Shown piece after piece: positions 37,079 through 47,619 of a DNA stretch of 47,619 bases (within the stretch, counting starts at the first letter, position 1; each line of letters begins with the position of its first letter). The notes beneath the pieces were generated by a model. The model ran no database searches. It was not told where the DNA came from and worked only from the letters and a program-made list of their open reading frames with translations. Origin of the DNA: Opitutus sp. GAS368 (GTDB lineage Bacteria > Verrucomicrobiota > Verrucomicrobiia > Opitutales > UBA953); the NCBI GenBank assembly GCA_945866215.1, contig CAMBGQ010000009.1, positions 1 through 47,619 on the forward strand, given 5' to 3'. Both the position numbers and the translations under genes were made by a program.

Positions 37079-39121
<2,043 letters not shown>

Positions 39122-39143
39122 GGTTAATAATCAGCCCGTCCGA

Positions 39144-39168
39144 AACCCCGACACTGTCGGGGTTTTTT
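39144..39168 (+). terminator. Intrinsic terminator after acs
   Basis: Stem AACCCCGAC / GTCGGGGTT with loop ACT, six T at 39163-39168. It starts 23 bases after the acs stop. Confidence 0.93.
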
Positions 39169-39173
39169 GTTTG

Positions 39174-39391
39174 GAGCCATGACTCAAAGGGAAACCGGAT
39201 GTTTAGCTGGGGTGCCTTGAGGTAGGGGCGCGACTGCGTCGCGTCCGTGGGCGGACGGATGTCATTAGGTCCGGCAGCTTACCCGGCTCATCGATTCTGT
39301 CTCGGCGAACGGACGCCACGCAGTGGCGCCCCTACCCGATGCATATCCCCAGCCTCCTCCCGGTCTCCGGCCTCCCCTTGAGTTATGGCTC
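39174..39391 (+). repeat. Long REPIN-like inverted repeat, copy A
   Basis: 218-base unit with inverted ends (GAGCCATGACTCAA at 39174, matched by the reverse complement of TTGAGTTATGGCTC ending at 39391). Inside are two head-to-head REP units: 39222-39247 (+), GTAGGG with arms GCGCGAC and GTCGCGT around TGC, and 39310-39335 (-) with arms GCGCCAC and GTGGCGT around TGC. The 115-base core 39221-39336 recurs inverted at 46791-46905 with most positions matching, including matched changes within stems. A related copy is at 40810-40933. Between the REPs no ORF is seen. Confidence 0.85.
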
Positions 39392-39393
39392 TA

Positions 39394-39449
39394 GGTAGGG
39401 CTGACCACCCTTGGTCAGCCGCGGTTGAGCGAGGGCGCTCAACCCTACC
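39394..39449 (+). repeat. Compact head-to-head REP doublet, copy A
   Basis: GTAGGG, 7-base stem CTGACCA/TGGTCAG with loop CCCT, central CCGCGG palindrome, stem TTGAGCG/CGCTCAA with loop AGGG, then CCCTAC. Both halves read GTAGGG-stem-CCCT-stem-CCGCGG when each is read on its own strand. The left and right loops are exact complements of each other. The same architecture with different stems is at 46965-47022. Confidence 0.85.
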
Positions 39450-39458
39450 TCACGACAA

Positions 39459-39485
39459 GCGGATGCGATGTCATCGCATCCCTAC
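39459..39485 (-). repeat. Single REP unit
   Basis: On the minus strand: GTAGGG, arms ATGCGAT and ATCGCAT around GAC, then CCGC. Perfect 7-bp stem. It lies just upstream of the tandem-heptamer module. Confidence 0.7.
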
Positions 39486-39486
39486 C

Positions 39487-39560
39487 CCGCCACCCGCCAC
39501 CCGGGCCCGCCACCCGCCACCTGAAGCTTGTCTCTCCCTATACTCGATACTCCATACTCT
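39487..39560 (+). repeat. Tandem-heptamer plus direct-repeat module, copy A
   Basis: CCGCCAC twice, a CCGGGC break, CCGCCAC twice, then CTGAAGCTTGTCTCTCCC and TATACTCGATACTCCATAC. The same order of parts is at 40945-41017. It lies 45 bases before the TlpA-like ATG. The gap 39122-39604 (483 bases) holds the acs terminator and these repeats, and no gene. Confidence 0.8.
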
Positions 39561-39604
39561 ATTTGGCGGTTTGCCTCCCTCCGCCCTCCCCCTATATCAC
39601 ACCC

Positions 39605-40735
39605 ATGCGCACCCTGCTCCTGCTGCTGCTCACAACCACCCTTTCCGCCGCCGGCCTGAAAGTCGGCGATCCCGCCCCTGCCACCCGGCCCGAGTCGATG
39701 CTCCAAGGCGAAGCGGTGAAAGAATTCAAGAAGGGCGAAATCTACGTCTTCGAATGCTGGGCAAGCTGGTGCGGACCGTGCGTCGCCGCGATTCCCCATC
39801 TCGACGACCTGCACAAGCGGATGGGCAAGAAGGGTATCGTGATCACCGGCGTCAATGTCTGGGAAGCCGAACGCGATGCGGCCTCCGCCCAACGCGCGAA
39901 AGATTTCCTCAAGGCCCAAGGTGACAAGATGTCGTACCGCGTCGCCGTCGGCGGCAAGGCCTTCGTCAAGGACTGGCTCGAAGCCGCCGAAGTAAACGGA
40001 ATCCCGCACGCGTTCGTCGTCGCCGAGGGAAAAATTGCTTGGATGGGCCATCCGATTGAACTGACCGCCGAGATGCTCGGCGACATCCTCACGGGTACGC
40101 CCCTCGCCGCCGCCGCGCCAATCGTCGAGAAAATCCCGTCGCGCCGACCGGGTAAGCCGGCCGTTCCGGCCAGCACCGCCCCCGGCGATGCGGAAATGGC
40201 CGCTGCCCAGGCGAAGCTCGACGCGCTGACCGAAGCGATGCGCGACCGCGACTGGGACGCCGTCGAGAAAGCCCTCCCGGCCGCCGCCGGCGTGATGCCC
40301 AAGAAAGAAGGTCAGGAGCTCCGCGAATCCGTCGAAGCCCAGATCGGCCTCGCCCGCGGCGACCCGACGAAATTCTACGCGCAGCTGGCCCGGCTCGCCG
40401 ACGAGGAGTTCGACGACGCGGAGGTGATGAACGAAATCGCCTGGCGCCTCCTCACGATGAAGGCCTTTGCGCAGAACCCCAACCTCGCCCTGGCCGAAAA
40501 GTGCGCCGTGCAGGCGGTCAAGCTCACCAAGGAAACCCACGCCGATAAACTCGACACGCTCGCCCGCCTCCGCTGGCTCCAAGGAAAAAAGGAAGAAGCC
40601 CTCCGCTGGCAGATTAAGTCCGTCGAAAAAGCCGAAGCCGGGCGGATGAAGGAAGAAGTGCAGAAGACGCTCGACGCGATGCTCAAGGGCGTGCTACCCC
40701 CCGCCGACGACGAGGAAGAAGACCCCGCCCGCTAA
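39605..40735 (+). CDS. Exported thioredoxin-like (TlpA-type) protein with helical repeat C terminus
   Basis: 376 residues. MRTLLLLLLTTTLSAAGLKV is a signal peptide. Residues about 20-175 are a TlpA/ResA-like thioredoxin domain with WCGPC at 55-59 and the cis-Pro region VNGIPHAFVV, so it is likely a periplasmic disulfide reductase. Residues 200-376 are helical and Ala/Lys-rich with repeat-like EIAWRLLTMKAFAQNPNLALAEKC segments that resemble TPR-type tails. ATG 39605 is chosen; the longer open frame runs into the repeat block. Repeats lie on both sides of the gene. Confidence 0.85.
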   Translation: MRTLLLLLLTTTLSAAGLKVGDPAPATRPESMLQGEAVKEFKKGEIYVFECWASWCGPCVAAIPHLDDLHKRMGKKGIVITGVNVWEAERDAASAQRAKDFLKAQGDKMSYRVAVGGKAFVKDWLEAAEVNGIPHAFVVAEGKIAWMGHPIELTAEMLGDILTGTPLAAAAPIVEKIPSRRPGKPAVPASTAPGDAEMAAAQAKLDALTEAMRDRDWDAVEKALPAAAGVMPKKEGQELRESVEAQIGLARGDPTKFYAQLARLADEEFDDAEVMNEIAWRLLTMKAFAQNPNLALAEKCAVQAVKLTKETHADKLDTLARLRWLQGKKEEALRWQIKSVEKAEAGRMKEEVQKTLDAMLKGVLPPADDEEEDPAR

Positions 40736-40769
40736 GCGCGGGAACTCATGTCACTCGAATCAATGGCAC

Positions 40770-40933
40770 CAGGCTTCCGGTCTCCCTTTGATTTTGAGCC
40801 TCTGTCTTGGGTAGGGACGTGATTGCCATCACGTCCGTTCGCGGACGGACCTAAGAAATCATCGAATCCAACTAAGACCCGGCAGCTCCCTCCTTCGGAT
40901 TCGAACGGCGGCGATAGCAATCACCGCCCTACC
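40770..40933 (+). repeat. REPIN-like repeat, copy B, with spacer module
   Basis: 40770-40809 holds a spacer module (TTCCGGTCTCCCTTTGATTT) also found near the other copies. REP units are at 40811-40837 (+), arms ACGTGAT and ATCACGT around TGCC, and 40906-40932 (-), arms CGGCGAT and ATCACCG with one mismatch. Between them CGTCCG and CGGACGGA recur as in copy A, and GGCAGCT is shared. The gap 40736-41021 (286 bases) has no gene. Confidence 0.75.
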
Positions 40934-40944
40934 CAATACCAATC

Positions 40945-41017
40945 CCGCCACCTGCCACCCAGGGCTGCCACCTGCCACCCGAAGCTTGTCTCTCCCTATA
41001 CTCGATACTCGATACTC
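40945..41017 (+). repeat. Tandem-heptamer plus direct-repeat module, copy B
   Basis: CCGCCAC, CTGCCAC, CCAGGG, CTGCCAC twice, then CCGAAGCTTGTCTCTCCC and TATACTCGATACTCGATAC. It ends four bases before the ATG of the Tat lipoprotein gene. Same part order as 39487-39560. Confidence 0.8.
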
Positions 41018-41021
41018 TCCC

Positions 41022-42284
41022 ATGCTCCCCCGCCGCGACTTCCTGAAACTCTCCGCCCTCGCCTCGCTCGGCGCGTTCACCGGTTGCGCCACCGCCCCGC
41101 AGTCCGCCCGCATCCGGCCGATCACGCACGGCCCGAAGTTCCACTGGCGCGGCTACTACGATAAATTCCTGTTCTCGGCCGACGACCGCTTCGTGCTCTC
41201 CAATGAGGTCGACTTCGAAGGCCGCTCGCCGACGAAAGCCGACTCAATTCGCGTCGGGATGGTCGACACTCAGGACAATGACCGGTGGATCGACCTGGGT
41301 GGCTCCAATGCCTGGAACTGGCAACAAGGCTGCATGCTCCAATGGCTCCCAGGCTCCGACCGCGACGTGGCCTGGAATGACCGCGCCGACGGTCAGTTCG
41401 TCACGCGCATCCTCGACGTGAAATCCGGCCGCACGCGCACGCTGCCGCAGCCGTTCTATACGTTCAGTCCCGACGGCAAGACGGTCTTCGCGCCCGACTT
41501 CGCACGACTCGACGTCTGCCGCCCGGGCTACGGCTACGCCACCGGCGCCGAGCGTGACATCTGGAAGCTTTCGCCAACCCCCGACGACATCGGCATCTGG
41601 CGGATGGATGTCGCTACGGGCCAACAACGCCTGCTCTTCTCGCTCGCCGAGGCGGCCAAGATTCCCTTCACCGGCCCGGCGAACGTCGCCTTTAAGCCAG
41701 GCGCAATCCATTGGTTCAATCACCTGCTCTGCAACACGGACGGCACGCGCTTGTTCTTCTTGCACCGCTGGCGTAATCCCGGCGACAAGGCCGCCTTCCG
41801 CACGCGCGCGCTCACGATCGATGTCAACGGCGGCAAGGTCCACGTCATGGACCCCAACGGCGGCACCTCGCACTTCGTCTGGCGCGACCCGCAGCATATC
41901 TTCGCCTGGGCTTGGCACCCTTCGCACGGCGAACGCTTCTACGTCTACAAAGACCTGAGCGACGAGGTCACGGTGGTGGGTAAGGACGCGATGCCGAACA
42001 ACGGCCATAACACCTACCTGCCGAATACGAATAACGAGTGGGTGCTCAACGATACCTACCCGCAGGGCCCCGAGAAGCTGCAACGGCCTTACCTTTATCA
42101 CATCCCAACCAACCGCCGCATCGAGGTCGGGGCCTTCCCGACCGTCGCCGCCATCAACGGTAAGGAGTGGCGCTGCGATACGCACCCTTCCGCCAGCCGC
42201 AGCGGACGCCAGTTCTGCTTCGACTCCGCCCACGCCGGCGGGCGCCAAGTCTACTTGGCCGACATCGCCGGGCTGCTGGGTTGA
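41022..42284 (+). CDS. Tat-exported lipoprotein, beta-propeller (oligogalacturonate lyase-like)
   Basis: 420 residues. MLPRRDFLKLSALASLGAFTGC carries a twin-arginine signal with lipoprotein Cys22. The rest has repeated strand patterns typical of a beta propeller: LWRMD-type IGIWRMDVATGQQRLLFSL, NHLLCNTDGTRLFFLHRWR, IFAWAWHPSHGERFYVY and the closing EWRCDTHPSASRSGRQFCFDS. The last block (CDTHPxxSxxGxxxCFDS) resembles PL22 oligogalacturonate lyase-type propellers; catalytic identity not proven. The ATG lies directly after a direct-repeat module; the 'MSLPILDTRY' run-on upstream is repeat DNA. Confidence 0.75.
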   Translation: MLPRRDFLKLSALASLGAFTGCATAPQSARIRPITHGPKFHWRGYYDKFLFSADDRFVLSNEVDFEGRSPTKADSIRVGMVDTQDNDRWIDLGGSNAWNWQQGCMLQWLPGSDRDVAWNDRADGQFVTRILDVKSGRTRTLPQPFYTFSPDGKTVFAPDFARLDVCRPGYGYATGAERDIWKLSPTPDDIGIWRMDVATGQQRLLFSLAEAAKIPFTGPANVAFKPGAIHWFNHLLCNTDGTRLFFLHRWRNPGDKAAFRTRALTIDVNGGKVHVMDPNGGTSHFVWRDPQHIFAWAWHPSHGERFYVYKDLSDEVTVVGKDAMPNNGHNTYLPNTNNEWVLNDTYPQGPEKLQRPYLYHIPTNRRIEVGAFPTVAAINGKEWRCDTHPSASRSGRQFCFDSAHAGGRQVYLADIAGLLG

Positions 42285-42350
42285 GCCGTCACGGTTCTGT
42301 CACTCAATCGCGCTTCCCATCCGGCGGAGGGGCCTGCATAGTCGCTTCCG

Positions 42351-43775
42351 ATGGCCACCCGTAGCGCACTCGAGCAATCCCGCTCCGCTCTCCACCTCCG
42401 CCTCTTGGCCGCACAGCGCCGCCTGGTCGCGAAGCAGCAGAGCGCCGTCATCGTCATCGGCGGCAGCGACCGCCTCGCCGCCTCCTCGCTCGCCAACCAG
42501 CTGACGGAGTGGTTCGACTCGCGCACCGTCCGCATCTGCGCGCCGACGGTCCAAGCGTCTCCGAAGCACCCTTTCCTGTGGCCCTACTGGCAGGACATGC
42601 CGGCCAAGGGCCGCCTCACGATCGTGGTTGGCGATTGGCTCACCCGCACGGCGATCCAAGCGGGCCATGACGAACTCTCCGGCGACGCCCTCCGCATGCG
42701 CCTGAAATCCCTCCGCACGTTCGAGGAACTGCTCGCCGCCGATGGGACGTCGGTGGTGAAAATCTGGATCGACTCGTCCGAGAAACTCCTGCGCAAACGC
42801 CTCCGCGAGGCCGAAGACACCGACGCCGAGGGCTGGGTCGTCGACGCCGACGACTTGCTCCTCGCCAAGAAGCGGGGCCACACCCTCGCCCGCGAACTCC
42901 GCTCCCAAGGTAGCGGTAAAAACCTGCCGTGGAAGGTTATCAGCGGCGGCGGCGAGACAAAACACCGCGACTTGCTGGCGGGCCTGGCCATCACCGCACA
43001 GCTCAACCAAGCCGCACGCCGCCGCCCCGCGACCAAGGCTAAGAAGCCCAGCGGACGACCGCGCGGGCTCCTCGAAAGCGCCTCGCCACACCCGACCCTC
43101 GATAAGAAAGGCTACAGCCAGCAGATGGTGAAGCTGCAAACCCGCCTCGGTCGCCTCTCTCGCCTCGCCGCCGCAAAAGGGCTCTCGACGATGGTCGTGC
43201 TCGAAGGCCCCGACGCCGCCGGCAAGGGTGGCGCGATTCGCCGTCTCTGCGGGCTGCTCGACGCCGCCCACTACCAAGTCTTCCCGACGCCAGCCCCCAC
43301 GCCGGAAGAAAAGGCCCGCCACTACCTCTGGCGCTTCTGGAACAAGGTGCCCGCCCCCGGCCATCTTGCGGTCTTCGATCGCTCCTGGTTCGGCCGCGTG
43401 ATGGTTGAACGCGTCGAGGGTTTTGCCAAGGACGCCGAATGGGCCCGCGCCTACGCGGAGATCAATGACTTCGAGGCCCGCCTCGCCGAAACGGGTATGG
43501 TGGTGCTCAAACTCTGGATCAACCTCTCGAAGGAAGAACAGCTGCGCCGCTTCCACGCTCGCGAACAGTCCCCGCACAAGCGGCATAAGATGACGAAGGA
43601 AGATTACCGCAACCGCAAGAAGTGGGATGCTAACCTGCGCGCAGCCGAAGACATGATTGCGCGCACCGACACGCCCCACGCCCCTTGGGTGGTGGTCTCG
43701 GGCGACGACAAGCGCTACGCGCGCGTGGCGACCCTCAAGGCCGTTTGCCGCGCGTTGGCCGACCGCCTCGACTAA
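42351..43775 (+). CDS. Polyphosphate kinase 2-family enzyme with two domains (PAP type)
   Basis: 474 residues. The C-terminal PPK2 domain has Walker A EGPDAAGKGGAIRRL, the lid region KVPAPGHLAVFDRSWFGRVMVERVEGF and the W-x-V-V-S-G-D-D-K-R closing. The N-terminal half has a degenerate related domain (VIVIGGSDRLAASSLANQL), as in two-domain polyphosphate:AMP phosphotransferases. It likely transfers phosphate from polyphosphate to a nucleotide (AMP best guess). Its 3' end overlaps mutY on the other strand by 41 bases. Confidence 0.82.
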   Translation: MATRSALEQSRSALHLRLLAAQRRLVAKQQSAVIVIGGSDRLAASSLANQLTEWFDSRTVRICAPTVQASPKHPFLWPYWQDMPAKGRLTIVVGDWLTRTAIQAGHDELSGDALRMRLKSLRTFEELLAADGTSVVKIWIDSSEKLLRKRLREAEDTDAEGWVVDADDLLLAKKRGHTLARELRSQGSGKNLPWKVISGGGETKHRDLLAGLAITAQLNQAARRRPATKAKKPSGRPRGLLESASPHPTLDKKGYSQQMVKLQTRLGRLSRLAAAKGLSTMVVLEGPDAAGKGGAIRRLCGLLDAAHYQVFPTPAPTPEEKARHYLWRFWNKVPAPGHLAVFDRSWFGRVMVERVEGFAKDAEWARAYAEINDFEARLAETGMVVLKLWINLSKEEQLRRFHAREQSPHKRHKMTKEDYRNRKKWDANLRAAEDMIARTDTPHAPWVVVSGDDKRYARVATLKAVCRALADRLD

Positions 43776-44802
43776 GCCACTCGCCGAGCCAGCGACGATG
43801 CGGCCCGCTCAACGCAGCCCCGTCGAGCGCTTCCGCGGCCACCCATTCAAGCTCGCCGTCCTTCGCCCAGCGACGGATCTCCGCGACCTTGGGCTCGAGG
43901 GCGTGCAGCTTCTCTTCGTAGGTCACGGTGCCGATGGTCCGCCTCCGCACCAGCGCAGGCTCGCCCGCCGACTCGACCCCGAGCGAGGACAGCACAGGAA
44001 TCTCCGCCATCCCCGCGAGGCGCTTGGCGGTATGCGGATTACGGCGCAGCAGGATTTTACCCTCACGAATAATAAGCGCCCGTTCGACGACGGCTTCCTT
44101 GCGCTCCTTGGAGACGAAGCGCGGTAAGGTCTGGGCATCGCCGGCCTGCTTCGCATCACACCATTCGGCCAGCGGACACTTCGCGCAGTCCGGCACACCC
44201 TTGCGGCAGACGGTGGCACCGAGCTCCATCATGGCCTGATTGAAATCCCCCGGGCGCTTGGGGTCGACGAGCTCATCGGCGCGCGAGGTGAACAGCTTAG
44301 CGGCGGACGACGCGTCACGCAATTTGGAGCGTACGCCATCGAGGCGCGCGAGCACGCGCACGACGTTACCGTCGACGACCGCGACAGGCTCGGCGAAGGC
44401 GATGCTGGCAATCGCGGCGGCGGTGTACGGGCCGACGCCCTTGAACTCGCGCCATTCGGCGGCGGTCCGTGGCGGCGACTTCAGCGCGGCGACCTGCTGG
44501 GCGAGGCTGAGGAGATTACGCGCGCGGGAATAATACCCGAGGCCGGCCCAGAGCGCGAGGACCTCGGCCTCTTCGGCTTTGGCGAGGTCTTTAAAGTCGG
44601 GCCACTTGGCGGTCCACTTTTCAAAATACGGAATCGCGGTGGCGATCTGGGTCTGCTGGCACATGAGTTCCGAGACGACGGTGCGGTAAGCCGAGACCTC
44701 CTCCCGCCACGGCATCGGCCGGCGGTGGCGCCCGAACCAGGCCAAAAGCGCCCGGCGCATCGCAGAGATGCTGGCATTACGGGCGGGTTTCGCGGCGGGC
44801 AT
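43735..44802 (-). CDS. mutY: A/G-specific adenine glycosylase
   Basis: 355 residues. RPMPWREEVSAYRTVVSELMCQQTQIAT has the catalytic Glu, GVGPYTAAAIASIAFAEPVAVVDGNVVRV the helix-hairpin-helix and catalytic Asp, and CRKGVPDCAKCPLAEWC the [4Fe-4S] site with C-x6-C-x2-C-x5-C. The C-terminal NUDIX-like 8-oxoG recognition domain follows (LRRNPHTAKRLAGMAEIPVL). It removes A opposite 8-oxoG. ATG 44802 (MPAAKPARN) is chosen; an internal ATG at 44760 gives a shorter form. Divergent from rnhC by 46 bases. Confidence 0.94.
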   Translation of the reverse strand: MPAAKPARNASISAMRRALLAWFGRHRRPMPWREEVSAYRTVVSELMCQQTQIATAIPYFEKWTAKWPDFKDLAKAEEAEVLALWAGLGYYSRARNLLSLAQQVAALKSPPRTAAEWREFKGVGPYTAAAIASIAFAEPVAVVDGNVVRVLARLDGVRSKLRDASSAAKLFTSRADELVDPKRPGDFNQAMMELGATVCRKGVPDCAKCPLAEWCDAKQAGDAQTLPRFVSKERKEAVVERALIIREGKILLRRNPHTAKRLAGMAEIPVLSSLGVESAGEPALVRRRTIGTVTYEEKLHALEPKVAEIRRWAKDGELEWVAAEALDGAALSGPHRRWLGEWLSRGGRPTRGKRP

Positions 44803-44848
44803 GGATGGGGCTGGATTCGGTGGCCAACTCGGGTAGACCTTGGGACTC

Positions 44849-45859
44849 ATGGCACGAAAGGCAAAGCAGGACTCCGATGACGAGCCGAAGAAGGTGGCGA
44901 TGCATACGCTGAAGCTCGACGCTGCCCAGGCCGCAAAGCTCCGTGCGATTCTCGTCGCCAAGGGCTGGGTATCCTTCGCGGTCGACCACGCGGCCTTTGC
45001 CTTCAAGGGCGAGAACCTGAACATCGTCCACTATAAGTCCGGCAAGTGCGTCATCTCGGGCAAGGGCACCGAGGACTTCGTAAAATTCACCCTCGAGCCC
45101 GACGTCACGGGCCAAGCGGTCCTGGGCTACGAGGAGGAGAACAACCCGGAGTGGTTCGAAGAACACGCCGGTCTCGATGAATCCGGCAAGGGTGATCTCT
45201 TCGGTCCGGTGGTCTCCGCCTGCGTCATCGCGACGGGCGAGATGACCCGTGAGTGGATTGAACTGGGCATCAAGGATTCTAAAAGGCTCACCGATACGAA
45301 GATCGCGGAACTCGACCGCGTCATCCGCGCCACGCCCGGCGTGGCGGTGAAGACGACGTTCATGCGCATGGCGAAGTATAACGAGCTGCATTCGCGCTTC
45401 GGCAAGAACCTCAATCGCCTGCTGGGCTGGATGCACGCAACCGCCTGCGAGGAAGCCCTCAAGGACTTCGAACTGCAGCACCAGCGCCGCCCGAAATGGG
45501 GCCTACTCGATCAATTCACCGAAGAACCCCTCGTGCAGAAGGAACTCGCCCGTAAAGGCGTCGAGTTCGATCTGCGTATGCGCACCAAGGCCGAATCTGA
45601 CCCCGTCGTCGCGGCGGCCTCGATCGTCGCCCGCGCGGCGTTCGTCCGTGAACTCGACCGGCTGTCCCTCGACGGTGGCGTCCAACTGCCCAAGGGATCC
45701 GGCTCCGAGGCCAAGAATGCGGGGATCGAACTCGTCGGCCGCCTCGGCCCGGCGATCCTTGTCAATTTCGCCAAGCTGCACTTCAAGACCGCCTACGAGG
45801 TCCGTGGGCTCGAACCACCGGCGACCAAACCGTTTGTCCGCCGCAAGAAGGCGGAATAA
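44849..45859 (+). CDS. rnhC: Ribonuclease HIII
   Basis: 336 residues. N-terminal TBP-like substrate-binding domain (about 1-90). The catalytic domain begins AGLDESGKGDLFGPVV (Asp, Glu) and continues to GLLDQFTEEPLV and KAESDPVVAAASIVAR, which carry the remaining acidic residues. It removes RNA from RNA-DNA hybrids. ATG 44849 is preferred over TTG 44840. rnhB starts three bases after its stop. Confidence 0.93.
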   Translation: MARKAKQDSDDEPKKVAMHTLKLDAAQAAKLRAILVAKGWVSFAVDHAAFAFKGENLNIVHYKSGKCVISGKGTEDFVKFTLEPDVTGQAVLGYEEENNPEWFEEHAGLDESGKGDLFGPVVSACVIATGEMTREWIELGIKDSKRLTDTKIAELDRVIRATPGVAVKTTFMRMAKYNELHSRFGKNLNRLLGWMHATACEEALKDFELQHQRRPKWGLLDQFTEEPLVQKELARKGVEFDLRMRTKAESDPVVAAASIVARAAFVRELDRLSLDGGVQLPKGSGSEAKNAGIELVGRLGPAILVNFAKLHFKTAYEVRGLEPPATKPFVRRKKAE

Positions 45860-45862
45860 GCC

Positions 45863-46612
45863 GTGGCCTCGCTGGCATCATTCGACCGCAAGAAAGGTGC
45901 CGATCGTCCGGGCATCGCGGGAGTGGATGAAGCTGGCCGCGGTTCGCTGTGCGGGCCCGTGATCGCGGCGGCGGTGCTACTCGACGCTGGCTTCTACGGC
46001 GAGCCCGCCTGGTTGCGGAAGCTTTCCGGCGCCAATGATTCCAAGAAGCTCACGCCGGAGAAGCGCGCCGAACTCCGCGAGGTCGTCGCGAAGATGGAAG
46101 CCGAGGGAAAATTGAAGATCGCCTGGGCCGCCGGCTCGGTGATGGAAATCTCGGCGCACAATATTCTCGGCGCCACCCGCCTCGCAATGGCGCGCAGTAT
46201 CGCCAAGCTGGCCGTGGGACATATCGCTCCCCTCTTCGCCGCCGCGGGCACCGAGGGCGAACTCTTCGGCCGCACGGATGCGCGCACCTTCCTCGTGCTC
46301 GTCGATGGGTTACCCCTGCGTCCGTTCGCCTGGGCGCACGAATCCGTGAAAGGCGGCGATGGTAAGAGCCTCGCTATCGCGCTGGCCTCGATCGTCGCCA
46401 AGGTGGAGCGCGACCGCATGCTCGTCGAAATGCACGCGCGCTATCCCCAATACGGTTTCGCCACGCATAAAGGTTATGGTACGCCGGAGCACGTCGAAGC
46501 CCTGCGCACGCACGGCCCTTGCGCCGAGCACCGCGATCTCTTCGTCCGCACCATCCTCGCCGGCGATCCTCCTCCCCCCGAAGCCACGGACGGAGAGTTC
46601 AGTTTTGAGTGA
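45863..46612 (+). CDS. rnhB: Ribonuclease HII
   Basis: 249 residues starting at GTG 45863. AGVDEAGRGSLCGPVIAAAVLL is the RNase HII signature with the metal-binding Asp and Glu, and ALASIVAKVERDRML and YGFATHKGYGTPEHVEAL are later family blocks. An insert around residues 110-165 (HIAPLFAAAGTEGELFGRTDAR) makes it longer than the E. coli enzyme. It follows rnhC by three bases; the pair are co-transcribed and probably overlap in function (RNA primer and ribonucleotide removal). Its stop is eight bases before a REP unit. Confidence 0.94.
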   Translation: MASLASFDRKKGADRPGIAGVDEAGRGSLCGPVIAAAVLLDAGFYGEPAWLRKLSGANDSKKLTPEKRAELREVVAKMEAEGKLKIAWAAGSVMEISAHNILGATRLAMARSIAKLAVGHIAPLFAAAGTEGELFGRTDARTFLVLVDGLPLRPFAWAHESVKGGDGKSLAIALASIVAKVERDRMLVEMHARYPQYGFATHKGYGTPEHVEALRTHGPCAEHRDLFVRTILAGDPPPPEATDGEFSFE

Positions 46613-46620
46613 GATCCTGG

Positions 46621-46655
46621 GTAGGGACGTGACGACGTCGCGTCCAGCCGCGGGA
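46621..46655 (+). repeat. Single REP unit just after rnhB
   Basis: GTAGGG, arms ACGTGAC and GTCGCGT around GAC (one G-T pair), then CC and AGCCGCGGG. It starts eight bases after the rnhB stop, where a terminator might be expected. The following stretch to 46790 holds no gene and shows short local word repeats (GTTGAC at 46748, 46756 and 46772; GGCCGATG twice). Confidence 0.7.
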
Positions 46656-46790
46656 AACCGAAGCCGATGGCCGAGGGCTGAACAGCCGACTCCTGAATGG
46701 CCGATGCCCCGGTGGCCGTCACCCGTCACCCGAAAGATGCGGCATGAGTTGACCCGTTGACCAGCTGGCCAGTTGACAAGGAATGCAATG

Positions 46791-46905
46791 GGTAGGGGCG
46801 CGACGGCGTCGCGTCCGTTCGCAGAGCGATCATCGTGAGCCGGGCAAGCTATCGGGCCTGAATACGTCTGTCCGCCCACGGACGCCACGCAGTGGCGCCC
46901 CTACC
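46791..46905 (-). repeat. Long REPIN-like inverted repeat, copy C (inverted relative to copy A)
   Basis: REP units at 46792-46817 (+; arms GCGCGAC, GTCGCGT, loop GGC) and 46879-46904 (-; arms GCGCCAC, GTGGCGT, loop TGC on the minus strand). Read on the minus strand, the 115 bases align along their whole length with 39221-39336, sharing GTCCGTGGGCGGAC near one end and GCGAACGGACG near the other. Stem changes (CCAC/GTGG versus CGAC/GTCG) stay paired. Confidence 0.85.
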
Positions 46906-46964
46906 GATGAACCGCAGCATCCCTCCCGGTTTCCGGTCTCCCTTTGCGTTCATACATCTGCCTT

Positions 46965-47022
46965 GGGTAGGGCCGAGCATCCCTGCTCGGCCGCGGCCAA
47001 CCAAGGATGGTTGGCCCTACCC
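46965..47022 (+). repeat. Compact head-to-head REP doublet, copy C
   Basis: GGGTAGGG, stem CCGAGCA/TGCTCGG with loop TCCC, central CCGCGG, stem CCAACCA/TGGTTGG with loop AGGA, then CCCTACCC. Same layout as 39394-39449 but with different stems, and perfectly paired. Between it and the long REPIN lies a spacer (46906-46964) like that in block A, so both loci share the order long REPIN, spacer, compact doublet. Confidence 0.85.
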
Positions 47023-47106
47023 GATGCATGACCCGACACCAGCACCCGAACCTGAACACCTGAACCAGATACCCGATGGCCGAGACCTGGGACCTGAGAA
47101 TGAATC

Positions 47107-47182
47107 TCCCCAGCTTTCATCCGGTCTCCGGTTTCCCTTTGAGTTCAAAGCCCCCCGCCACCTGCCACCCGCCACCCGAAAC
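47107..47182 (+). repeat. Spacer module plus tandem heptamers
   Basis: TCCCCAGCTTTC, CCGGTCTCCGG and TTTCCCTTTGAGTTC repeat the spacer found at 39346-39385 and, inverted, at 39174-39199. CCGCCAC, CTGCCAC, CCGCCAC and CCGAAAC at 47155-47182 repeat the heptamers of 39487 and 40945. The block 46613-47340 (728 bases) contains no gene. Confidence 0.7.
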
Positions 47183-47190
47183 GGATTCAC

Positions 47191-47256
47191 CTAGGGCAGC
47201 ACGCGGTGCTGCCCCTACCTCGATACAGTGGACGCGTTCGCCGACGCGTCCCTACC
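47191..47256 (-). repeat. Two further REP units
   Basis: 47191-47218 (-): GTAGGG, arms GCAGCAC and GTGCTGC around CGC, then CCTAG. 47229-47255 (-): GTAGGG with an ACGCGT/ACGCGT stem around CGGCGA. Both face the same way and lie upstream of the terminator of the PEP-CTERM gene. Confidence 0.7.
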
Positions 47257-47262
47257 TCAAAC

Positions 47263-47288
47263 AAAAAAGGGCGCCGATTGACGCCCCT
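47263..47288 (-). terminator. Terminator of the PEP-CTERM protein gene
   Basis: On the minus strand: GGGGCG stem with CGCCC around TCAATCGG, followed by six T (47268-47263). It lies 53 bases past the stop of the minus-strand gene. Confidence 0.8.
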
Positions 47289-47340
47289 TCCTTCTGCTTC
47301 GCAGCAGATCCCCATACCAGCAGTTCCCCCGCGCAAGCGC

Positions 47341-47619
47341 TCAGGCTTTGGCCTGAGCCTTGCGCCTACGCCGAATGGCGGCGGCGGCGAGCGCCAGCGC
47401 CCCCAGGCCAAAGCCGTAGGTAGAAGGCTCGGGCACCGCGGTGAGGGTGATCGCTCCGGTCGTCGAATTCCAGTCAATCGACCAGAGGCCGGCATTCGAG
47501 AGAGAGCCGTCGCTGTAGCGGAAATCCGTGACATCGAAGCTGAAGACGTCGCTGATATTCTCGCCGCCGTTGAGCAGTAAGCCACCGACCGTCGCAAAAT
47601 TGAACGGGCGGATAGACGA
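47341..47619 (-). CDS. PEP-CTERM sorting-domain protein, C-terminal part (5' truncated by window)
   Basis: The last 92 residues of a longer protein, with stop TGA at 47343-47341. The C terminus is a PEP-CTERM signal: VPEPSTYGFGLG, then a hydrophobic Ala/Leu stretch (ALALAAAAI) and a basic RRRRK tail. The upstream part (NISDVFSFDVTDFRYSDGSLSNAGLWSID) is Ser/Gly/Asn-rich and looks like an extracellular beta-rich protein. The motif is processed by an exosortase in known systems. It implies an exosortase gene elsewhere in the genome. Confidence 0.9.
   Translation of the reverse strand, partial: SSIRPFNFATVGGLLLNGGENISDVFSFDVTDFRYSDGSLSNAGLWSIDWNSTTGAITLTAVPEPSTYGFGLGALALAAAAIRRRRKAQAKA

Follow-up and report, generated by a model that had tools for sequence, protein, structure and literature searches.

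REPs and REPINs, probably copied by several RAYT lineages, in three intergenic gaps of a contig from Opitutus sp. GAS368

The window analyzed here is a stretch of 47,619 nucleotides that makes up one entire contig (G000:C9) of the Opitutus sp. GAS368 draft genome (GCA_945866215.1; 1.90 Mb in 97 contigs, 85.5% complete). Three of its gaps hold short hairpins headed by GTAGGG, which we interpret as repetitive extragenic palindromic (REP) sequences, many of them joined head-to-head as REPINs, of the kind associated with REP-associated tyrosine transposases (RAYTs, or TnpA_REP). The first gap lies between an acetyl-CoA synthetase gene, which ends at 39121, and a redoxin/thioredoxin-type gene; the second separates that gene from the next; and the third is downstream of a ribonuclease HII gene (assignments from Pfam and open reading frames). 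Throughout, G000 is the source genome, other G numbers are genomes of relatives, and L numbers are fetched loci.

The window contains 21 GTAGGG/CCCTAC hexamers, of which 14 lead into a hairpin of 8–10 bp without mismatch (G.T allowed) and seven have no such hairpin. The score threshold used is reached by 195 of 5000 random positions. All 14 units fall within three blocks (39222-39485, 40811-40932 and 46621-47255). The initial annotation had recognized the three blocks, estimated about a dozen units and described most as head-to-head pairs, which our count bears out: ten form five pairs and four are single. The usual unit consists of GTAG followed by a 9-bp stem, in which two outer G-C pairs (the GG...CC foot) enclose seven variable inner pairs. 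The loop of 3–4 nt first described holds as a rule (6 nt in the unit at 47255). A 3' end of CCG or CCGCGG applies to most units, with CCGCGG characteristic of the 54-nt pairs, but other bases follow the units at 46621, 47218 and 47255. An Rfam search of 38900-47400 gave five matches with E values no higher than 1, each far short of its gathering score.

The pair at 39221-39336 does recur in inverted orientation at 46791-46905, with 83% identity. The block at 40810-40933 had been proposed as a third, more diverged copy of it; we rejected this, as its stems are those of class J, another sub-family. For each of classes F, B, I, J, K and C', at least one window unit is identical in stem and loop to units that flank RAYT genes in congeners.

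The initial annotation had suggested a genome-wide search with its 115-base core and a hairpin profile, and such searches place units over the whole genome rather than in the window alone. By blastn with a limit of E 10, a 116-nt core had 63 matches spread over many contigs of the source genome, the weakest being chance matches. A set of fetched loci of this genome, 96,660 bases in all, contains 66 distinct units; the loci were selected by match to the core, so that unit density there is not genome density. Every one of the 66 has a G at base -1 (i.e., GGTAG), and 56 are arranged in 28 head-to-head pairs (17 of 113–118 nt, six of 54 nt and five others). Identical units are frequent within a class, with up to 11 copies of one unit sequence among 57. 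A covariance model built from 27 distinct units (E 0.1) found units in all 55 genomes of the genus, G000 included, at 1 to at least 144 each; 135 candidates were scored per genome, making the high counts lower bounds. The source genome has at least 140 and G012 at least 129.

Stem pairing is maintained across this diversity. Covariation was 0.784, versus 0.175 in shuffled controls, with changes on both sides in seven of nine pairs, in units that were preselected by hairpin. In a set of 284 units from fetched genus loci, selected on the tag, the inner two pairs, the loop and the final CC, the 1420 free stem pairs read on the GTAG strand comprised 1348 Watson-Crick, 63 G.T, 2 A.C and 7 other pairs. 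The filter (at least three of five pairs standard, G.T included) slightly favors G.T, and class F supplies 41 of the 63 G.T pairs. Equal strands would give similar numbers of G.T and A.C. The excess of G.T fits recognition of the GTAG strand, which has been reported for TnpA_REP (PMC8266576). When folded as single-stranded DNA, the 54-nt pairs form two adjacent hairpins and each class-F pair a single long one (z -6.7 and -3.7), with poorer folding for the class-J pair (z -2.7).

RAYTs were sought with a genus-specific profile (A1) built from 10 proteins. All ten match NCBIfam REP_Tyr_transpos (NF047646) at E 0.001 or better (best 1.8e-24), the first member scoring 79.8 bits against a cut-off of 80, and nine match Pfam Y1_Tnp (PF01797). 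The E. coli TnpA_REP structure 4er8 matches A1 at E 2e-15, and the HUH and Y motifs are invariant across the ten. By family assignment, structural similarity and motifs, then, the profile proteins are RAYTs. At E <1e-25 the profile yielded 54 matches, fragments included, distributed over 28 of the 55 genomes; seven more genomes had weak matches only, six of these to proteins of 306–331 aa. At least four RAYT lineages occur in some genomes (G016, G002). The named genomes with the nearest RAYT relatives in a similarity search are uncultured Opitutae and other Verrucomicrobiota, which itself suggests a member of the Opitutae as the source.

We listed the units within 420 nt of each RAYT at 54 fetched loci and classed them by hand-written stem patterns, which were made after viewing the units but not the proteins. 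Where classed units were present on both sides, the class was the same on both sides for 43 of 44 RAYTs. The sole discordant case, L253, is a broken gene and was labeled by its downstream side. A maximum-likelihood tree of 53 RAYTs required 16 label changes for 16 labels (15 classes plus "none"), the minimum being 15; shuffled labels required 41.2 on average, and none of 200 shuffles was as low as 16. L086 and L087, which are weak matches and have no unit, were left off the tree, as was the 83-aa L255, and three unflanked RAYTs were entered as "none"; the class H clade includes an unflanked RAYT. Each RAYT clade having its own stem/loop class, we rejected a single REP family for these units. 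The one REPIN family of the initial annotation is thus replaced by several, each tied to a different RAYT lineage.

The RAYT superfamily also includes larger Y1 proteins in this genus, and the hairpins might instead be the ends of ordinary IS200/IS605-type elements moved by those proteins. The shared superfamily lends this some plausibility, as do the Y1-type proteins of some 300 aa that occur in the genus, a number of which have GTAGGG hexamers no more than 1.5 kb away. However, none of 11 control loci of other Y1-type proteins (175–333 aa) had tagged hairpins of the same stem on both sides within 420 nt, compared with 43 of the 44 RAYTs flanked on both sides by classed units; seven of these control loci extend more than 420 nt on both sides and four are short on one side. 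We give this explanation next to no credence.

Agreement between clade and class could come from linkage alone, because the flanks are inherited together with the gene, and for that reason genome-wide copies that track the enzyme are a stronger test. We counted four classes by pattern in the 55 genomes, with one mismatch allowed; reversed-pattern controls gave 0 everywhere. The counts include the few units adjoining the RAYT itself, and for class J the J' genome G063 was taken as RAYT-bearing. Median counts with and without the cognate RAYT were 35 and 2 for class B (p 3e-4), 31 and 6 for C' (p 5e-4), 59 and 3 for J including J' (p 0.003), and 29 and 5.5 for F (p 0.013), p values that are optimistic here and below, as the genomes are related and the tests overstate their independence. 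Within the 28 RAYT-bearing genomes, the mean rank was 0.83 for matched classes and 0.49 for unmatched classes of the same genomes, and 0.83 was reached in none of 20,000 permutations (18 genome-class pairs). Units of any class were also more numerous in the 28 genomes with a RAYT (median 97.5) than in the 27 without (median 34; p 5e-6).

Two window elements have convincing empty sites. In the gap after the acetyl-CoA synthetase gene, the class-F REPIN occupies the loop of a larger palindrome in both G000 and G015, and in G033 both sides align through with no REPIN. The class-B REPIN is missing from G027 and G010, where both flanks align and a few bases differ at the junction. Empty sites were sought for nine window elements in all, and seven had no clear one. 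Candidates for C' and G were rejected as joins within unrelated sequence or another repeat; that for 46621 proved to be a filled site in G012, and that for I a filled site or another stretch. No target duplication was obvious by eye at the F and B sites, although no test aimed at duplications was made. Insertion would be the simpler reading of the aligned empty sites.

These observations also bear on whether the units are host elements under selection, such as transcription terminators, mRNA-end stabilizers or nucleoid sites, rather than mobile DNA. All 14 window units are intergenic and 3' of a gene, and their stems are strongly conserved as pairs, both as expected of such elements. On the other hand, presence at the same gap varies by species, with two empty sites; head-to-head pairing occurs at a few preferred spacings; class abundance tracks the cognate RAYT; and matching units lie beside RAYT genes but not beside the other Y1-type genes tested. 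A host function as the explanation is therefore very unlikely in our judgment.

We conclude, with a probability of roughly 0.92, that these hairpins are REPs, joined as REPINs in the head-to-head pairs, and that RAYTs of several lineages copy them as non-autonomous elements. The mobile REPIN population proposed in the initial annotation is supported by the genome-wide units, by RAYTs flanked by the same units in relatives and by the two empty sites. For its suggestion that a RAYT encoded outside the window moves the REPINs, the support comes from relatives; no RAYT was found in the source genome. A restriction of the units to the window, or a lack of RAYTs in the genome and its relatives, would have pointed the other way; the units occur genome-wide, and 28 of the 55 genomes have RAYTs or pieces of them.

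We infer that the RAYT is the copying enzyme and that stem and loop are what it reads. On one of the two DNA strands, each RAYT lineage would recognize GTAG together with the stem and loop particular to it and would cut and join that strand, so that copies of its class would build up in the genome over time. RAYT lineages may come and go among species while the REPs remain, which could explain how 8 kb of this window came to hold REPs of six lineages (F, B, I, J, K and C') and a degraded class-G unit. Because its units include exact matches to the classes of six RAYT clades, plus a near match to G, the window is, to judge from stems and loops, a mixture from six or seven lineages of RAYT, and the source genome yielded no RAYT of any of them. 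We lean, with less assurance, towards a more specific proposal: the seven variable pairs and the loop would be an address read by one RAYT lineage only, with about 15 such address/enzyme pairs gained and lost by species in this small-genome, probably freshwater genus of Opitutae, so that its intergenic DNA would be a fossil record of vanished RAYTs, six or seven of them in the window. If this is true, the series would let the address code be read by comparison.

Several results weigh against copying by cognate RAYTs, in addition to the relatedness of the genomes counted. No RAYT was found at E 10 in the source genome, in a draft 85.5% complete, with either Pfam Y1_Tnp or the genus profile, nor in the close relatives G012, G067 and G003 with the genus profile, even though G000 and G012 are rich in units. 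The idea that a RAYT was lost at a repeat-broken contig end is without support, since units are no commoner than expected at contig starts (one among the starts of 60 of the 97 contigs, against 1.3 units expected). Some class counts are high where no cognate RAYT was detected (J in G008, 104, G012, 78, and G000, 51; F in G001, 74), and others are low despite one (B in G004, 5; C' in G016, 10). Compared with other RAYT-bearing genomes, class F is the sole marginal class (p 0.051). Class N is not one clade on the RAYT tree, and no unit was found within 420 nt of the RAYTs L240 (G007), L245 (G062) and L246 (G036). Precise loss could also explain absence at an empty site. As a separate observation, L240 and L246 form a clade of their own and may use another kind of repeat.

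The missing enzymes raise the question of whether the population is a relic, spread by ancestral RAYTs and now orphaned in G000 and its nearest relatives, where it is decaying or being gene-converted. This would be a state of the RAYT-copied population rather than its opposite, and we give it an even chance. It is suggested by the lack of a detected RAYT in those four genomes, by the degraded unit at 47255 and by REPINs of different class at one left junction in G000 versus G015 and G016. Against it, the four drafts are only 61–85.5% complete, the near relatives G068 and G027 do have RAYTs, and many units within a class are identical. We infer that the source genome lost its RAYTs, rather than that the assembly lacks them; its population may be orphaned, or a RAYT gene may lie in the missing part of the draft. 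In any case, a genome in which no enzyme is found can still be rich in REPs.

These elements are of a known kind, the REP/REPIN-RAYT systems, and their units agree with the GTAG superfamily of REPs, in which a GTAG or GTGG tag adjoins a short stem-loop. In Pseudomonas fluorescens, inverted REP pairs, or REPINs, are said to be the mobile unit; by comparison, some genomes here have at least four RAYT lineages, and none was found in the source genome. What is new is the dense series of about 15 RAYT-hairpin pairs in one genus and the class-specific abundance test. A literature search found no study of REP/RAYT classes in this genus among the papers listed, most subscription journals being outside its reach.

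Within the same phylum, Opitutus terrae is rich in GTAG repeats (GTAG-17, -19 and -20), with dimers and repeat-specific REPtrons (Di Nocera et al. 2013, PMC3733652). The units described here resemble the GTAG repeats of O. terrae and other bacteria in that report in their GTAG tag, mostly 6–9 bp stem and short loop, in head-to-head dimers, one type of which has partners 1–2 bp apart, and in having several families per genome with repeat-specific REPtrons. They differ in belonging to another genus, the likeness being one of description. Beyond that account, the present analysis maps 15 classes onto a tree of RAYTs and, for four of them, tests whether counts follow the presence of the RAYT. REPs need not share a genome with a RAYT to count as such: the same report describes REPtrons as deleted in many E. 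coli strains (PMC3733652).

The units are also like the group 3 TnpA_REP/REP pairs of Stenotrophomonas and Marinomonas, with short, generally perfect palindromes after GTAG, an enzyme that co-evolved with its cognate REP and strand-specific recognition (PMC8266576). Those pairs were assayed in vitro; those of this genus are known from sequence alone. According to that 2021 account, enzyme-hairpin co-evolution had been shown for a few pairs, and how the enzymes distinguish perfect palindromes was only partly worked out (PMC8266576). The roughly 15 enzyme lineages of this single genus share a GTAG-GG...CC frame, on which the majority have a stem and loop of their own, and so provide matched natural variants for that question.

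A similar association is seen outside the genus. Among 58 RAYT loci there, 34 had tagged hairpins on both sides, and in all 34 the two sides shared a stem, with 31 different stems represented; dummy genes placed in those 58 loci had such hairpin pairs in 0 of 174 cases. The other 24 loci had no such pair at the settings used. The 58 remain from 80 loci fetched by RAYT similarity, of which 6 were short-flanked and 16 were dropped as in-genus or doubtful, some of them for 20-mers shared with the genus; L104 and L091 were dropped as doubtful despite sharing no 20-mer with the genus.

The elements of the window are collected in Table 1.

Table 1. REP and REPIN elements of the window
Element	Position	Strand	Units	Basis and context
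REPIN class F, 114 nt	39222..39335	.	GTAG+GGGCGCGAC-tgc and GTAG+GGGCGCCAC-tgc, head-to-head	Stems also flank RAYTs in L073, L075; DNA fold z -6.7; empty site G033; inside loop of larger palindrome (approximate arms 39182-39212, 39346-39384)
REPIN class B, 54 nt	39395..39448	.	GTAG+GGCTGACCA-ccct and GTAG+GGTTGAGCG-ccct, GCGG joint	Exact stems beside RAYTs in L061, L062, L065; empty sites G027, G010
Single REP class I	39461..39485	-	GTAG+GGATGCGAT-gac	Exact stem beside RAYTs in L079, L238
REPIN class J, 122 nt	40811..40932	.	GTAG+GGACGTGAT-tgcc (exact J) and GTAG+GGCGGTGAT-tgct (variant)	J stems beside RAYTs in L244, L247
Single REP without class label	46621..46645	+	GTAG+GGACGTGAC-gac	Also in orthologous gap of G012
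REPIN class F, 113 nt	46792..46904	.		Inverted relative to 39222-39335
REPIN class K, 54 nt	46967..47020	.	GTAG+GGCCGAGCA-tccc and GTAG+GGCCAACCA-tcct, GCGG joint	Exact stems beside RAYT in L249
Single REP class C'	47193..47218	-	GTAG+GGGCAGCAC-cgc	Exact stem beside RAYTs in L076, L234-L237
Single degraded REP, class G-like	47230..47255	-	GGACGCGTC-ggc, one additional base in 3' arm	Class G beside RAYT in L078

Other repeats share these gaps. The palindrome around the first class-F REPIN (CTCAAAGGGAAACCGG... / ...CCGGTCTCCCTTTGAG) is itself interspersed, its arms recurring in the blocks (also at 40769-40795, 46925-46945 and 47100-47145) and in congeners. The content of its loop varies by genome: a REPIN in G000 and G015, another repeat in G003 and nothing in G033. 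Much of the gap DNA consists of arrays of the words CCACCCGCCACC, ATACTCGATACTC, CACCTGAACC and CGTCACCCGTCACC, joined in congeners by GGCGGTTAGCGG and TTGCACCTTTGCAC; in the window, such arrays lie at 39487-39560, 40945-41018, 46680-46780, 47030-47090 and 47150-47180. The repeat words have 10–32 copies each in 508,300 fetched bases (loci selected for REPs, RAYTs or window genes, with overlapping loci counted more than once), and reversed-word controls have 0. Further words that were tried had 0 copies (two words) or 2 and 5 copies. The class-B REPIN of G000 at 39395-39448 and class-K REPINs in G015 and G016 (L178, L179) share a left junction, GGCTCTAG followed by GTAGGG, and their right flanks do not align, which could reflect replacement or a shared insertion hotspot.

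Two features of the neighboring genes were also observed. At 44840-46612 there is an adjacent gene pair, each member of which matches Pfam RNase_HII (E 1e-28 and 6e-32). Where G000 has a single thioredoxin-type gene after the acetyl-CoA synthetase gene (39606-40735), L173 (G068) and L180 (G011) apparently have two.

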